64,000 nt of DNA from Siansivirga zeaxanthinifaciens CC-SAMT-1 (lineage in GTDB: Bacteria; Bacteroidota; Bacteroidia; Flavobacteriales; Flavobacteriaceae): the NCBI RefSeq assembly GCF_000941055.1, contig NZ_CP007202.1, positions 1,794,001 through 1,858,000 on the forward strand, written 5' to 3'. Positions 17,710 through 50,274 of the stretch are shown here, piece after piece (positions within the stretch are counted from its first letter, which is position 1; every line of letters begins with the position of its first letter). The notes under the pieces were generated by a model, which did not search any database, was not told where the DNA came from, and saw only the letters and a list, made by a program, of their open reading frames with translations. The position numbers and the translations under genes were made by a program.

Positions 17710-17737
17710 CTATGAAAATTTATGTTTAGTTATTACT

Positions 17738-17822
17738 GCGTTAGGGATAGCAATGGAAATCCTTTTTTTGAGGTACGAAAAAAAAGATTGTAATGAATAG
17801 CCCGACCCTTGTGGTAACGCCC
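17738..17822 (+). repeat. Interspersed structured repeat, copy A
   Basis: An 85-nt intergenic element closed by GCGTTA (17738-17743) and TAACGC (17815-17820). It contains the blocks GTTAGGGAT, AAATCCTTTTT, AAAAGATTGTAA and AGCCCGACC, shared in order with a second copy on the minus strand at 44466-44575. An internal stem pairs TTTTTTT with AAAAAAA here; in the second copy the same stem has a G-C pair at one position, a compensatory change. Function unknown; it is either a small mobile repeat or a structured RNA. Confidence 0.7.
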
Positions 17823-44465: not shown

Positions 44466-44575
44466 GGGCGTTACCCCATACCTTCCATTTCATTTCAGGT
44501 ATGCGGTCGGGCTGTACGTTACAATCTTTTTGTTCGTACCCTCACAAAAAGGATTTTCACTGCCATCCCTAACGC
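44466..44575 (-). repeat. Interspersed structured repeat, copy B
   Basis: A 110-nt element on the minus strand, with the same ordered blocks as copy A at 17738-17822. GCGTTA and TAACGC close it. The inner stem TTTTTGT / ACAAAAA differs from copy A by a compensatory G-C for T-A change. A variable arm (CATACCT / AGGTATG) replaces the short arm of copy A. It lies between the aspS terminator and the DUF2911 start. Confidence 0.7.
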
Positions 44576-44593
44576 AAACTTTAGTACATAAAA

Positions 44594-44644: not shown

Positions 44645-47600
44645 TTATTTTCTCATAATTTTCACATTCATTTCCTCAACTTTTTTATCAGAAAGTAGGG
44701 AAGGAGCGCCAAATAGTAAGTCTTCGCTGGTACCTGTTTTCGGGAAAGCCATCACTTCTCTAATCGATGCTTTTTTCTCTAAAATCATCATCAATCGATC
44801 GACACCCCAAGCAATACCACCATGTGGCGGTGCACCATAATGAAACGATTTGTACATTGTACCTACACTTTTAAGCATCTCCTCTTTCGTGTAACCCATG
44901 TTTCTGTAAGTAGCTTCTAAAATTTCGGGTTTGTGTGCACGCACAGAGCCACCACCAATTTCGTAACCATTTAATATTAAATCGTATTGCTGCGCGATAA
45001 TGCTTCCTATTTCTTCGTCTTTGCCATTCATGTGTTTTTCAATATCATAAACAGCAGGCATCGAGAATGGGTTATGGGTAAACGTCCAGCGACCTTCGTC
45101 GGTTCTCTCAAACATAGGGAAATCTACAACCCAAGCCGGTCTTAATTCTTTCGGATTAATTAATTTAAGCATAGCGCCTAATTCCTGTCTTACAGCATCT
45201 AAAGCTTTATTGGCTGTTGCATAATCTGCCGCCGAGAAAAATACAATATCGCCAACCTGAGCATTTGTGGCTGCAATAATGCCAGCAGCAATATCTTCAC
45301 CTAAAAACTTAATTATAGGCGATTGTAAATCGTTTTCATTAACAATAATGTAGGCTAAACCACCTAAACCGTGTTGTTGGGCTATGGCTGTAAGTTTTTC
45401 AATCTGACCTTTCGATAAACGTTTATCGCCTTGCTCTTGGGCAGATACTTTAATACATTTTACAATACCGCCTTCTTCAATAGGTTTGCTAAAAACCTGG
45501 AACGTGGTTTCTTTTACAATGTCTGTAATGTCTTGAAGTTGTAAACCAAAACGCAAATCGGGTCGGTCGCAACCATAATAATACATCGCGTCTTGATAGG
45601 TTATCACTTCAAAAGGATGTAAAATCCATTTGTTACCATAAATTTTGGTAACAACTTCATTAAACATTTTGGTGTTTAAATCTATAATTTGTTGCATGCT
45701 GGCATAGGCCATTTCTAAATCTAACTGTGTAAATTCAGGTTGGCGGTCGCCACGAGAATCTTCATCTCTAAAACAACGTGCAATCTGGAAATATTTTTCG
45801 TAACCAGACACCATCAGCATTTGTTTAAATTGTTGAGGTGCTTGTGGCAAGGTGTAAAATGCACCAGCTTGTTTACGAGAAGGCACAATAAATTCACGGG
45901 CACCTTCATCGGTTCCGGCACTTAAAATAGGTGTTTCAATTTCCAGAAAATCCTGCTCGTCGAGAATATCGCGAAGCAACTTAATAACTTTGTGACGGTT
46001 TACTATAACGCGACGCACATCGTCGTTTCTGTGATCTAAATATTTGTATTGAAAACGTGTGTTTTCGTTGGTTTTTGTAGCACGCTTAATTTCGAAAGGC
46101 AACGTTCTTGATAAATTTAAAATATCTAATTGCGACGCTTCCAATTCTATTTTTCCAGTTCTTAAAGCAGGATTGTAATCGTCTTCTTTACGTTGTACAA
46201 TAGTACCTGAAACCGTAATAACAGACTCTGGTTTTAATTTTACCAGGTCGTCTAAATTAGGAAACGATTCTCTGCTTAAACGCACTTGAAATATTTGTGT
46301 GCTAGAATCGCGTAAGTCTATAAAAATAAGTTCTCCATGGTCGCGCACACTCGAAACCCATCCCGCCAGAGTCACTTCTTCGGCAATATTTTCTTCAGAA
46401 ATATTTGAAATTAAGTGTGTTCTGTATTCTTTCTTAATGATGATGGGAATTTGTGGTAAAACTTCTTCTTTGGTTGTTGGTTGTTGGTTGTTGGTTGTTG
46501 GTTGTTTGGTTTTACCACCTTCTTCGGTCTTCGTGCTTCCGTCATTTCCACCGGCTAACTGACTTAAAATGCCTTCACGAATTACTTTTCCAGAGGCGCC
46601 TTTACCAATAATAGCTATAATTTTTCCAACTAAAATACCAGCTTTTCCTTGGTTTCCACCTTTAATTTCATCGGCTATGGCTGAGTTTTCAGAGATAACC
46701 TTAGCAATGGCTTCTTGTATTTTTTCTTCAGAAATGGTGTTTTCTGCGAAGTAGGTTTTATAATCGAAATGCGCATCTTCTAAAATCGATTTGATGGCAT
46801 TTTGAGCTAAAACAGGTGTTACTTTTTCATCTTTAAATAAGCTGAAAATATCAATAATATCTGAAATATTTTCAATGCGATGGTAGTCCTCAGGCTTTAT
46901 ATTATTGGTTAATGTTTTAGCAACAAACGATGGGTCTTTAACGGCTTCGTTTATGGCAACAAAGGTTTCAGAACGTAACGAATCGGCTGTAAAGAATTTA
47001 GCATCTTGAGGTAAAACACCACCTTTAATAAGTATAGATTCTACAGCGAAAGGCAACGAACTTAAATCGACATTAATAGTTTTAACAACATCTTTAATAT
47101 TTACAAAAGGTAAATCGGGCTCCGAGATAAAACGATAATCTGCTTCGTATTCCTTTTTACGCATGGTTTTGGTTTGCTTTAAATCGGCATCCCATAAAAC
47201 CGTGGTTTGGTCGGGTCTAAACTCTTTGTGCTCAATATAGTAGTTTAATTGCTTTTCAACTTCTTCTTTTAAAGCATCTACCATAAACTTAAACGAGTTT
47301 AAGTTTTTAATTTCTGTACGCGGATTTAAATCGTACGTATGCTTTTTACGCAACGACACCGAAACATCCGATTTAAACTCCCCTTTTTCAAGATTGGCTT
47401 CCGATATTTTTAAATTTTGCACAATACGCTGAATGTACTGTGCATAGGTTGAAGCATCTTCGATATGGCGAATACAAGGTTCTGTAACAATTTCAATAAG
47501 TGGCACGCCCGCTTTGTTGAAATCGACTAGCGAAACAGTTTTTTCGTGCATCAATTTAGCCGCATCTTCTTCGATGTGTACTTGTGTTAAATTAACAGTA

Positions 47601-47983
47601 AACTGCGATCCATCGTTACGAAAACAAGAAACTTGTCCGTCTGGAATTACAGGATTGTGAAACTGTGTAATTTGAATGTTTTTTGGGTTGTCTGGGTATT
47701 CGTAATGTTTTCTATCCCATGAAATAACATCATTTTCAAACGATGAATTTACCGCTTTACCAAAATAAATAGCCTTTTTAATAGCTTCTTTATTTATGGC
47801 TGGTAAAACGCCCATTTGCCCTGTACATACAGAACATATATTTTGATTAGGTATTTCTATTTCTTGATTCGGACAAGAACAGAATAATTTTGTTTTGGTG
47901 TTTAATCGAACGTGTGTTTCTAATCCGATTACTAATTCTAAATCATGGGCTTTTAAAGCCGCGTCTAATTGCTCCAGTTTCAT
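44645..47983 (-). CDS. gatB-aspS: Fused GatB amidotransferase subunit and aspartyl-tRNA synthetase
   Basis: A 1112-residue fusion. Residues 1-about 480 are GatB: HDLELVIGLETHVRLNTKTKLF, zinc cysteines C35, C37, C50 and C53, the cradle domain, and a complete YqeY-like C-terminal domain (GNQGKAGILVGKIIAIIGKG). Residues about 480-512 are a Thr/Asn/Gln-rich linker encoded by five 7-bp repeats. Residues about 513-1112 are a full bacterial AspRS: anticodon domain, motif 2 (FRDEDSRGDRQPEFTQLD), GAD insert, motif 3 (GIAWGVDRLMMIL). In the anticodon domain the fold's specificity position reads RDHG (His549); a histidine here is the mark of non-discriminating AspRS that also charges tRNA(Asn). The product would make Asp-tRNA(Asn) and, with GatA and GatC, amidate it. 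Confidence 0.95.
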   Translation of the reverse strand: MKLEQLDAALKAHDLELVIGLETHVRLNTKTKLFCSCPNQEIEIPNQNICSVCTGQMGVLPAINKEAIKKAIYFGKAVNSSFENDVISWDRKHYEYPDNPKNIQITQFHNPVIPDGQVSCFRNDGSQFTVNLTQVHIEEDAAKLMHEKTVSLVDFNKAGVPLIEIVTEPCIRHIEDASTYAQYIQRIVQNLKISEANLEKGEFKSDVSVSLRKKHTYDLNPRTEIKNLNSFKFMVDALKEEVEKQLNYYIEHKEFRPDQTTVLWDADLKQTKTMRKKEYEADYRFISEPDLPFVNIKDVVKTINVDLSSLPFAVESILIKGGVLPQDAKFFTADSLRSETFVAINEAVKDPSFVAKTLTNNIKPEDYHRIENISDIIDIFSLFKDEKVTPVLAQNAIKSILEDAHFDYKTYFAENTISEEKIQEAIAKVISENSAIADEIKGGNQGKAGILVGKIIAIIGKGASGKVIREGILSQLAGGNDGSTKTEEGGKTKQPTTNNQQPTTKEEVLPQIPIIIKKEYRTHLISNISEENIAEEVTLAGWVSSVRDHGELIFIDLRDSSTQIFQVRLSRESFPNLDDLVKLKPESVITVSGTIVQRKEDDYNPALRTGKIELEASQLDILNLSRTLPFEIKRATKTNENTRFQYKYLDHRNDDVRRVIVNRHKVIKLLRDILDEQDFLEIETPILSAGTDEGAREFIVPSRKQAGAFYTLPQAPQQFKQMLMVSGYEKYFQIARCFRDEDSRGDRQPEFTQLDLEMAYASMQQIIDLNTKMFNEVVTKIYGNKWILHPFEVITYQDAMYYYGCDRPDLRFGLQLQDITDIVKETTFQVFSKPIEEGGIVKCIKVSAQEQGDKRLSKGQIEKLTAIAQQHGLGGLAYIIVNENDLQSPIIKFLGEDIAAGIIAATNAQVGDIVFFSAADYATANKALDAVRQELGAMLKLINPKELRPAWVVDFPMFERTDEGRWTFTHNPFSMPAVYDIEKHMNGKDEEIGSIIAQQYDLILNGYEIGGGSVRAHKPEILEATYRNMGYTKEEMLKSVGTMYKSFHYGAPPHGGIAWGVDRLMMILEKKASIREVMAFPKTGTSEDLLFGAPSLLSDKKVEEMNVKIMRK
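46471..46505. repeat. Five tandem 7-bp repeats in the GatB-AspS linker
   Basis: TGGTTGT repeated five times exactly (read on the plus strand), coding on the minus strand for part of the QPTTNNQQPTT linker. The unit is not a multiple of three, so a change in copy number shifts the frame between GatB and AspRS unless three units change together. Confidence 0.95.
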
Positions 47984-48070: not shown

Positions 48071-49471
48071 TTATATCGTGTCTTTTAAGAAGTTAGCAAA
48101 CTTCAAAACAAGTTCGTCGTTATGTTTTGCGGCTGTAATTTGTAAGCCTGTTTCGGTACCTTGCGGTACGGTAAGTGTTGGTAATTGTCCTAAACTAAAG
48201 CCAACCGTATATGCATCGCTTAAATACATGGCGTGCGGGTCTTTTAAGCTGCTGCCAATTTCTGGCGGCGTGCTTGGAGTTACAGGAGATAAAATAATGT
48301 CTACTGCTTCAAAATCTTTTTCAAAATTTTCTGAAATCGCATCGCGAAGCGCTAAACCTTTTAAATAAATTTCATCTGAAAACCCCTGAGACAATACTTG
48401 GTTTCCACCAACAATTCTGCGTTTGGTTTCTTCTGAAAAATTTTCAGAACGCGTTACAGCGTACGATTCTTTTAGGTTTTTATCCTCAATACGATTACCG
48501 TAGTTAGAACCATCTAAACGCGATAGGTTAGAGGCTGTTTCGGCCATAGCTAAGGTGTAATAGGTAGATACTAAAATATCCGACTTAAAAAAGTCTAATG
48601 CCTTTACTTCAATACCTTTAGCTTTAATTTTTTCGATAGTTGCTAAAAAATCTGCTTTAATTTTAGAATCGATGGCATCGCTATCAATAAAGTTTTTAAA
48701 GTAACCAACGGTTTTTATGTTAGAGTAATCTGAAATAGTTTCAGCTTCAATAGCCGAAGCATCGTAAGTGGTTTGGTCTTTTGGGTCTTTTCCACTCATC
48801 ACATTTAACACGATACGAATATCTTCAACTGATTTCGCAATAGGACCTACACAGTCTGTTGATGAGGCATAGGCCATCAATCCGTAGCGAGAAATACGTC
48901 CGTAACTAGGTTTTAAACCATACACATGGTTGTAACCGGCTGGTTGTCGTACCGAACCACCCGTATCGCCACCAATAGAAAACACGGTGTAGTCTTTGGC
49001 CACATTTACTGCCGAACCACCACTAGAACCACCACCTACTAAATTTGGATTTAAGGCGTTTTTTACAGCTCCAAAAATGGTGTTTTCACTCGAAGATCCA
49101 TGTCCGAAACTATCACAATTTTCTTTAACCACCGGAATAGCGCCCGCATCTAGTAATTTTTGAATAGCGGTAGCTGTGTAAGCCGATTTGTAGTGCTTTA
49201 GTAATTCGGAACTTGCGGTGGTGTACGTGCCTTGCAGCATGTAAACATCTTTAATTCCGAAGGGAATACCTTCTAATAAACCAATAGTTTCTCCCTTAGC
49301 TATTTTTGCATCTACTTTAGCTGCTAAATCTAAAGCAAAAGTGTCTAGTAAGGCATTTACAGTTTGGTTGGTATTGGGTTTTAAAGCATCTAATTTTTCC
49401 TGAATTAAAGCAGTACAAGAAATTTCTTTATTTACCAATTGTTGGTGTAATGTATGTATTTGAGACGCCAT
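48071..49471 (-). CDS. gatA: Glutamyl/aspartyl-tRNA amidotransferase subunit A
   Basis: The glutaminase subunit, which makes ammonia for amidation of Asp-tRNA(Asn) and Glu-tRNA(Gln). The amidase-signature triad is Lys74 (GIKDVY), Ser149 (GGGSSGGSAV) and Ser173 (GGDTGGSVRQP), with the 24-residue serine spacing of other GatA. It is 466 residues, full length. It starts 2 bp after gatC and is followed by gatB-aspS after an 87-bp gap. Confidence 0.95.
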   Translation of the reverse strand: MASQIHTLHQQLVNKEISCTALIQEKLDALKPNTNQTVNALLDTFALDLAAKVDAKIAKGETIGLLEGIPFGIKDVYMLQGTYTTASSELLKHYKSAYTATAIQKLLDAGAIPVVKENCDSFGHGSSSENTIFGAVKNALNPNLVGGGSSGGSAVNVAKDYTVFSIGGDTGGSVRQPAGYNHVYGLKPSYGRISRYGLMAYASSTDCVGPIAKSVEDIRIVLNVMSGKDPKDQTTYDASAIEAETISDYSNIKTVGYFKNFIDSDAIDSKIKADFLATIEKIKAKGIEVKALDFFKSDILVSTYYTLAMAETASNLSRLDGSNYGNRIEDKNLKESYAVTRSENFSEETKRRIVGGNQVLSQGFSDEIYLKGLALRDAISENFEKDFEAVDIILSPVTPSTPPEIGSSLKDPHAMYLSDAYTVGFSLGQLPTLTVPQGTETGLQITAAKHNDELVLKFANFLKDTI

Positions 49472-49473
49472 AA

Positions 49474-49743
49474 TTATTCTTCTATAACTTTAGAAACCAC
49501 TAAATAGCCATTTTTCTCTTTTGGAAAATTTTCAATAATGATTTGTTTTTCCAATGCCGAACTTTCAATTACGACATCCTCTCTTAAGTCATCTAAAGAC
49601 ACCCCGTTGTTATGATTATTATTAAAGGAATTATTATTTGTTGGTTGTGCATTTTTAATTACTTCAAATAATTTGTTTACAGCCTCACTAGGTTGCGCCC
49701 CTTTAATACTCGACAATACGTCGACTGTCATAATTTTACTCAT
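49474..49743 (-). CDS. gatC: Divergent GatC-like subunit with an Asn-rich tract
   Basis: An 89-residue protein placed where gatC is expected, first in the operon. Its C-terminal half (DDLREDVVIES, then LEKQIIIENFPKEKNGYLVVSKVIEE) matches the end of GatC, where LRxD and a VPKxI-like ending are conserved. The N-terminal half is not the usual pair of GatC helices but a short MTVDVLSSIKGAQPSEAVNKLFEVI segment and an Asn-rich tract (residues 36-46, NNNSFNNNHNN, 49606-49638). This tract resembles the leader peptide upstream. GatC helps assemble GatA with GatB. Assignment is by position and C-terminus. Confidence 0.75.
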   Translation of the reverse strand: MSKIMTVDVLSSIKGAQPSEAVNKLFEVIKNAQPTNNNSFNNNHNNGVSLDDLREDVVIESSALEKQIIIENFPKEKNGYLVVSKVIEE

Positions 49744-49761: not shown

Positions 49762-49792
49762 AAAAAAAGCCTTCCGAACTCCGGAAGGCTTT
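49762..49792 (-). terminator. Attenuator terminator upstream of gatC
   Basis: On the minus strand AAAGCCTTCCG / CGGAAGGCTTT is a perfect 11-bp stem with a 5-nt loop and seven T after it (49762-49768). It lies between the promoter and the first gene and ends 18 nt before the gatC ATG, so it can only act as a conditional terminator in the leader. Confidence 0.85.
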
Positions 49793-49820
49793 ATATATTT
49801 TTTAAACAACAACCTTCCGA
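49766..49820 (-). promoter_or_regulatory. Putative antiterminator of the gatCAB-aspS leader
   Basis: The strand at 49813-49820 (minus TCGGAAGG) can pair with the first arm of the terminator (CCTTCCGG), giving 8 pairs including one U-G, and would prevent the terminator stem. The strand begins 2 nt after the leader-peptide stop codon, so a ribosome finishing the peptide would cover it. Confidence 0.65.
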
Positions 49821-49822
49821 CC

Positions 49823-49870
49823 CTAATAGTTAGGATTATTGAAATTATTATTGTTGTTATTATTTCTCAT
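49823..49870 (-). CDS. Asn-rich leader peptide of the gatCAB-aspS operon
   Basis: A 15-codon ORF, too short for usual gene calling: MRNNNNNNNFNNPNY, ten of 15 codons Asn (AAT and AAC), ending with TAG at 49823-49825. It starts about 12 nt after the predicted transcription start and is directly followed by the antiterminator/terminator pair. This is the classical layout of a leader-peptide attenuator that senses charged Asn-tRNA. A small hairpin (CCTAA/TTAGG) overlaps its last codons and may cause RNA polymerase pausing. Evidence is purely from sequence layout. Confidence 0.8.
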   Translation of the reverse strand: MRNNNNNNNFNNPNY

Positions 49871-49887
49871 GTTATCTTTTTGCGCGT

Positions 49888-49917
49888 CAAATATATGTAG
49901 AATAAATAAACTAGCAA
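49888..49917 (-). promoter_or_regulatory. Promoter of the gatCAB-aspS operon
   Basis: On the minus strand, TTG (49915-49917) and TATATTTG (49888-49895) are separated by 19 nt, a near-perfect match to the Bacteroidota TTG-N19-21-TAnnTTTG pattern. It predicts a start of transcription near 49882, upstream of the leader peptide. Confidence 0.75.
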
Positions 49918-50274
49918 CTATTTAATAGTATATCCTTTATTATAATTATCAGATTAACAAAAAACATAAAAATATGTTAGTAGTTCTATAATATATGTCT
50001 AATTTTTGTTCAATTAGGTTAATAAAATCTCTTTAAAATAATGGTTTTGCGACTAAATTGCTCCTTTTTTATGGTTAATAGGCTTTTAATAAAAAGCAAA
50101 ATATTGGCTATAAGACATTTTTTTGTTTTTCAATTTTTATGAAAGAATAAAATAATATCGAAATCAATTTTAAGCCCTTTTTTAAGCGATTTAAGACACT
50201 TTTAGGTAATTAACAATTGTTGATAATTTTGCCTTATAATCGATAAATTACTTTTAAAACGCTTGCAATTTTCG
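49918..50274. other. Intergenic region between the gatC and gyrB promoters
   Basis: An AT-rich stretch of about 360 bp between two divergent promoters. I see no convincing gene or repeat. A 34-codon plus-strand ORF starts at 50041 but has no support. Confidence 0.5.

Follow-up and report, generated by a model that had tools for sequence, protein, structure and literature searches.

Ribosome-mediated transcription attenuators of the trp, his and pheST type of Escherichia coli have a leader open reading frame (ORF) rich in the relevant codons, a stop codon just before RNA segment 2, mutually exclusive helices between segments 1:2, 2:3 and 3:4, and a terminator before the first gene. In Clostridium, a T-box riboswitch reportedly binds tRNA in the control of a gatCAB-type pathway. 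The subject of this text is an element of Siansivirga zeaxanthinifaciens CC-SAMT-1, located on the minus strand within a stretch of 64,000 nucleotides (nt) of contig NZ_CP007202.1, which was analysed as a whole and is called the window (all coordinates are window positions). Its ORF at 49870–49823 very probably encodes the leader peptide of a transcription attenuator that acts through the ribosome and would turn on the operon gatC-gatA-gatB/aspS when charged tRNA-Asn is scarce. The element has the leader ORF, the stop position, the predicted exclusive helices and the predicted terminator in common with the attenuators of E. coli, but the codons are those for Asn, the operon is one of tRNA-dependent amidation, and the Asn codons themselves form most of segment 1. 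As with the T-box of Clostridium, tRNA would regulate a gatCAB-type pathway at the level of RNA, the proposed sensor here being, however, the translating ribosome.

Leader-peptide attenuation itself is known; the element on the gatCAB operon is a well supported candidate for a new, Asn-reading case of it. In searches of openly licensed papers, neither a gatCAB operon with an Asn-reading leader nor a GatB/AspRS fusion in flavobacteria was found; the first point agrees with a preliminary description of this DNA, made from its letters alone, which knew of no such leader. The transcriptome of Flavobacterium psychrophilum, which belongs to the same bacterial family, is reported to give strong indications that operons for amino-acid biosynthesis are preceded by leader peptide attenuators (PMC9723704); the word "asparagine" occurs 0 times in the main text of that report. 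For Bacteroides thetaiotaomicron, short ORFs reminiscent of leader peptides have been mentioned (PMC7366714). With respect to metabolism, the closest described organisms are Deinococcus, Thermus and Bdellovibrio, in which tRNA-dependent synthesis of Asn occurs together with asparaginyl-tRNA synthetase (AsnRS) and glutaminyl-tRNA synthetase (GlnRS) and without an Asn synthetase (PMC4206432). The gene inventory of S. zeaxanthinifaciens is the same, including a tRNA-Asn with U1-A72, but no leader attenuator is described in that paper's account of these organisms, and in S. zeaxanthinifaciens GatB forms one protein with a second aspartyl-tRNA synthetase (AspRS), which matches the bacterial-type model.

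The element consists of the following parts, given with the kind of evidence by which each was delimited (MFE, minimum free energy).

49888–49918, minus strand: predicted promoter, composed of GTTG (49918–49915), a 19-nt spacer and TATATTTG (49895–49888); motif.
49823–49870, minus strand: leader ORF MRNNNNNNNFNNPNY followed by a stop, 15 codons, 10 of them Asn; ATG at 49870, TAG ending at 49823.
49830–49858, minus strand: segment 1, leader codons able to pair with segment 2 and the stop-codon region; MFE fold of the element and RNAalifold.
49822–49834, minus strand: stop-codon hairpin CCTAA-CTA-TTAGG; pair counts across leaders.
49805–49820, minus strand: segment 2, antiterminator arm TCGGAAGG (49820–49813) plus TTGTTGTT; pairing with segments 3 and 1.
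49782–49792, minus strand: segment 3, AAAGCCTTCCG, the first arm of the terminator, which can also pair with segment 2; folding and pair counts.
49766–49776, minus strand: segment 4, CGGAAGGCTTT, second terminator arm; folding and pair counts.
49762–49768, minus strand: U-run of the predicted intrinsic terminator; 5–9 T across 58 leaders.

The 15-codon ORF with its 10 Asn codons, the antiterminator strand, the 11-bp terminator stem (arms 49792–49782 and 49776–49766) and gatC, the start of which (49743) follows 18 nt after the T-run, had all been listed in the preliminary description, and their presence is confirmed. The leader reads ATG AGA AAT AAT AAC AAC AAT AAT AAT TTC AAT AAT CCT AAC TAT TAG, and segment 2 is separated from segment 3 by an AT-rich stretch of 12 nt. 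The near-consensus promoter proposed at the same time is present as a motif 17 nt from the leader ATG, and a motif TAnnTTTG or TAnn[TC]TTG lies 5–35 nt upstream of the ATG in 40 of 40 leaders; as to its type, we take it to fit the Bacteroidota consensus and not that of sigma-70.

The attenuator would work as follows. When Asn-tRNA is plentiful, the ribosome would reach the TAG and cover segment 2, the helix 3:4 would form and transcription would stop. A ribosome stalled on an Asn codon would instead cover segment 1, whereupon 2:3 would form before segment 4 is made and transcription would enter gatC. Without translation, 1:2 may form, which would also favour the terminator. What is sensed is presumably the charging of tRNA-Asn.

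Folding predicts three mutually exclusive helices, namely 1:2, in which leader codons pair with segment 2, the antiterminator 2:3 and the terminator 3:4. The pairing of the Asn codons with the stretch after GGAAGG (1:2) and the small hairpin enclosing the stop codon were absent from the preliminary description, and it is the addition of 1:2 that would make the element a full three-helix attenuator. The set of aligned leaders comprises 58 sequences, 57 of them distinct. The RNAalifold consensus is 1:2 plus 3:4, a combination also favoured by the full-length RNA in six example leaders; its pairs are standard in 98.6% of cells, as compared with 38–67% when the partners are slid, and the two helices of segment 1 are paired in 99.3% and 100% of cells. 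For the combination of 2:3 with the stop hairpin the corresponding values are 94.2% and 34–66%. In each of the 57 rows the GGAAGG of segment 2 is paired with segment 3, five counted pairs of the stop hairpin are standard in all 57 distinct leaders, with 43 for its innermost pair, and a stem with a T-run, the predicted terminator before the first structural gene, is found in all 58 aligned leaders. The folded element has, on the single strand, a z of −4.03.

The movement of the ribosome was modelled by folding nascent RNAs that end before segment 4 in all 58 leaders, the footprint being taken to extend 9, 12 or 15 nt past the codon in the A-site. For every A-site position between codons −13 and −4, 2:3 is the predicted nascent MFE structure in at least 57 of the 58 leaders at all three footprints. 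With the ribosome at the stop codon, segment 2 would be covered in 58 of 58 and 2:3 left in 0 of 58, because segment 2 lies only a short distance away. The geometry originally put forward, in which a ribosome at the stop covers the antiterminator and a stalled one frees it, holds in this model across the 58 leaders.

Conservation was examined in loci and in whole genomes. Of 257 loci encoding a relative of GatA the best 80 were taken, of which 78 had readable DNA upstream of gatC and two were too short; an orthologous Asn-rich ORF with N[F/S]NN[P/S] precedes gatC in 39 of the 78. A covariance model built from these 39 leaders and that of the window, and run on 397 Flavobacteriaceae genomes, gave 37 strong matches (89–128 bits, one per genome; the next score is 58.7), 20 of them new and 17 repeats of training sequences. 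All 37 carry the leader ORF, with ATG as start in 36 and a start read as GTG in one, and all have gatC behind them, either within 260 nt or directly visible. It should be noted that both letters and pairs contribute to the score of the model and that the training rows were picked by the ORF, so that the ORF in the new matches is supporting and not independent evidence. In the genome of S. zeaxanthinifaciens the leader (116.9 bits) occurs as a single copy, and a second one can be dismissed, the next model match having 36.8 bits. On a tree of 78 fusion proteins, leader presence (40 rows) requires 9 changes, a number as low as this being reached in 0 of 500 label shuffles (mean 26.2), which indicates that the leader is clustered, yet has been lost or gained repeatedly. 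A strict pattern for the leader, which misses variants, matched 5 of 395 genomes of the order, all five of them Flavobacteriaceae, and none outside this family. In a Polaribacter locus (L092:4625–4650) there is no Asn leader, and another stem, AGCTCGATCGAGCT, with a T-run lies about 107 nt upstream of gatC.

The codons of the leader are constrained in two ways. All 58 leaders end with TAG and have 14–16 codons with 7–10 Asn, and codons for Gln number 2 in total. At codon −11 from the stop, Asn is found in 57 of 58 leaders and is encoded by AAT in 29 and by AAC in 28, as expected from selection on the amino acid. This bears on the explanation that terminator and antiterminator are switched independently of translation, by a bound protein or tRNA as in a T-box, and that the ORF is incidental. 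We regard it as unlikely, since a non-coding switch would not need Asn to be kept through AAT/AAC changes, since the ORF is intact in all 37 strong matches, and since neither a T-box nor any other riboswitch matched at Rfam gathering scores in the window; the only two matches there at such scores are to the Flavo-1 RNA, and a known riboswitch was rejected as a candidate for this reason.

The second constraint is on the RNA. AAC occurs at codon −10 in 44 of 58 leaders, and at codons −9, −7 and −4 in 1, 0 and 0 of 58. The third base of codon −10 is opposite a G of segment 2, the pair being C-G in 44 and U-G in 13 of the 57 distinct rows. For the 8 nt after GGAAGG an exact complement lies within the ORF in 53 of 58 leaders, and in 57 if G-U pairs are allowed. 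This choice of base and these complements to segment 2 suggest that the Asn codons are at the same time RNA segment 1. At codons −6 to −3 the residues F, N, N and P are present in 57, 58, 58 and 57 of the 58 leaders, respectively, a degree of invariance that would also be expected if the FNNP motif, and not the charging of tRNA-Asn, stalled the ribosome by nascent-peptide arrest (perhaps with a ligand or through slow incorporation of Pro), with the same RNA switch following. Many of the nucleotides encoding FNNP are, however, engaged in pairs with segment 2 and with the region of the stop codon, and this can account for their invariance; moreover, the operon is concerned with Asn, not with Pro; the AATAAT before CCT is mostly unpaired in that fold, so that its invariance is not explained in this way. 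On balance we consider arrest by the peptide very unlikely.

That the leader acts on the translation of gatC or on the stability of the mRNA, readthrough being constitutive, would be compatible with the mere 18 nt between T-run and gatC in the window; it is, however, highly improbable in view of the stem with 5–9 T in the 58 aligned leaders and of predicted helices that leave the gatC start uncovered. Chance, i.e., a run of AAT codons in an AT-rich intergenic region next to an unrelated terminator, is a negligible explanation although the region is indeed AT-rich and GatC has an Asn-rich linker of its own with or without the leader: it is refuted by the conservation and countered by dinucleotide shuffles of the 320-nt upstream region, among 20,000 of which 0 contained an ORF with at least 10 Asn, 7 an ORF with at least 7 Asn and 1 a comparable terminator. 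Among the 814 ATG ORFs of 8–30 amino acids (aa) on both strands of the window the leader is the sole one with at least 7 Asn at a content of at least 45%. The linker of GatC (49603–49641, minus strand) was rejected as part of the switch, its mean of 8.6 Asn per 22 residues with the leader and 8.8 without (39 loci each) indicating that the two are independent.

The attenuator would control the following genes.

49474–49743, minus strand: gatC, divergent; TIGR00135 with 19.6 bits against a cut-off of 47.1; position and operon context.
48071–49471, minus strand: gatA; TIGR00132, matched over nearly the full length with E 3.7e-127 and 424.9 bits (cut-off 481.1).
44645–47983, minus strand: gatB-aspS fusion, 1112 aa; both halves over cut-off.

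Since the scores of GatC and GatA are under the curated cut-offs, these two were named by best match and context, whereas each half of the fusion is over its own (GatB, NF004012, 393.4 bits; aspartate--tRNA ligase, NF001750, 710.7 bits). The genome, which is in one contig and 99.84% complete, also encodes AsnRS, GlnRS and a second, unfused AspRS. For AsnA there was no match in the genome of S. zeaxanthinifaciens, and for AsnB nothing over the cut-off, two weak matches (frames of 620 and 640 aa) covering only parts of the profile. Given that AsnA and AsnB were not found and that AsnRS and GlnRS are present, the GatCAB-AspRS operon is probably the route to asparagine, and its gene content indicates that it probably makes Asn-tRNA from Asp on tRNA-Asn, as had been assumed from the start. 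In agreement with this, the one tRNA-Asn gene examined, which was located by pattern, has U1-A72, the pair reported to be recognised by bacterial GatCAB (PMC4206432).

The fused AspRS has the motif RDHG, like 4wj3_M (named Asp/Asn ligase); 6hhv_A and 1efw_A have RDLG, and the unfused AspRS has RDKG. We take a residue of the RDHG type to be a mark of the AspRS class, and by this mark the fused AspRS would be non-discriminating. With neither AsnA nor AsnB found, the loop would amount to feedback of the end product, Asn-tRNA, on asparagine synthesis.

A gene-content survey of 149 Flavobacteriaceae genomes, one per genus, shows how this pathway is distributed. GatB was found in 22 of them, each time within a frame of 1115–1123 residues, i.e., as a fusion with AspRS. 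The GatB matches listed for other families of the order are in frames of about 480–510 residues. AsnB was counted as lacking where no match had an E better than 1e-24, in agreement with the 126 of 149 genomes over the cut-off. It is lacking in 13 of the 22 genomes with the fusion, none of which has AsnA, as compared with 10 of the 127 without it, two of these 10 having AsnA (Fisher p 1.8e-7, relatedness and incomplete genomes uncorrected). Among the genomes that are at least 90% complete, AsnB is lacking in 12 of 20 with the fusion versus 5 of 104 others. Of the 21 fusion genomes with readable upstream DNA, 12 carry the leader (genome G162, which ends too early, was excluded), and AsnB is lacking in 9 of these 12 versus 4 of the 9 leader-less ones (p 0.20).

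Several observations speak against the attenuator as proposed here or weaken its support. Half of the relatives examined (39 of 78 loci) carry the operon without the leader, among them close relatives such as L059; the leader-less group includes all 21 loci titled Flavobacterium and all 3 titled Lutibacter. Conversely, genome G146 has the leader and gatC, and no GatB was found in it. AsnB is kept in 3 of the 12 leader-bearing fusion genomes, and with p 0.20 the tie between leader and AsnB loss is not significant, so that a firm link between the two was discarded. In the footprint model, a stall with the A-site at codon −2, which is the last Asn in most leaders, frees 2:3 in 58 of 58 leaders if the footprint is 9 nt, but in only 13 if it is 12 nt and in 0 if it is 15 nt, so that segment 2 would be masked in most leaders at 12 nt or more. 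Without a ribosome the nascent MFE structure is 2:3 in 39 of 40 leaders, and protection by 1:2 would depend on the kinetics of co-transcriptional folding.

Covariation is weak, and the shuffles used to assess it ignore relatedness. That of 1:2 plus 3:4 equals shuffles, with 172–180 of 500 reaching the observed values (the paired percentage is reached by 180, the covariation score by 174), and covariation was therefore dropped as the main proof; its weakness is due to the arms showing almost no variation. For the combination of 2:3 with the stop hairpin, neither the score nor the paired percentage is attained by any of 500 shuffles, and the two-sided cell count is attained by 30, but the number of two-sided pairs is attained by 277 and that of pair types by 373. 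Of the 12 two-sided cells, moreover, 10 belong to a single pair next to GGAAGG:CCTTCC, and this flanking pair is formed in just 28 of 57 rows. The pairing is backed by conservation and slide controls and hardly by compensatory change, for which the support is modest in the case of 2:3. Hence, of what an alignment of relatives was expected to reveal, the conserved ORF and stems were found (39 of 78 loci and 37 strong model matches), whereas covarying stems are seen only weakly and half of the relatives are without the element. The interpretation of the element as an attenuator is supported all the same.

With somewhat less confidence, we consider it probable that the leader represents the first asparagine sensor read by the ribosome and that it stands for a flavobacterial family of attenuators whose Asn codons serve as the sensor and, at the same time, as an arm of the RNA switch. 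The feedback would be on an amino acid that is made only attached to tRNA, so that the Asn-tRNA sensed would be the direct product, and the leader would select between scavenging via AsnRS and synthesis via GatCAB. If this is true, asparagine joins the amino acids that leader peptides read, and there is an example of feedback through the ribosome on the tRNA-dependent synthesis of an amino acid. The logic is open to testing, since operons that have the leader occur in nature beside others that lack it, and genomes that have AsnB beside others that do not. The element also adds comparative support to the leader-peptide attenuation proposed for Flavobacteriaceae.

Matches to the Flavo-1 RNA (RF01705) in the F. 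psychrophilum transcriptome are stated to have given no real clue to its function (PMC9723704). The two matches in the window are at 44501–44578 on the minus strand, just past the end of gatB-aspS, and at 17724–17811 on the plus strand.

Weak matches to the covariance model are frequent, 181 of the 397 genomes having some match with E ≤0.01. Of the matches below the 37 strong ones only the eight next best were inspected. None of the eight is near gatC: four are candidate leaders of ilvD, two are candidate leaders of trpE and two are terminators without a leader (L194 and L204). The ilvD leaders (L195, L197, L199 and L205; ilvD over cut-off) are rich in Ile and Val, those before trpE (L196 and L198; trpE as best match under the family cut-off) have tandem Trp, and each is followed by a stem with a T-run. 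They have the leader ORF, the stem and the T-run in common with the element described here, but would read Ile/Val or Trp. Together with the report on F. psychrophilum, these leaders make attenuation a mechanism to be expected in the family. Three of the four ilvD loci (L195, L197 and L199) contain, behind the terminator, another small ORF that is rich in Ile.
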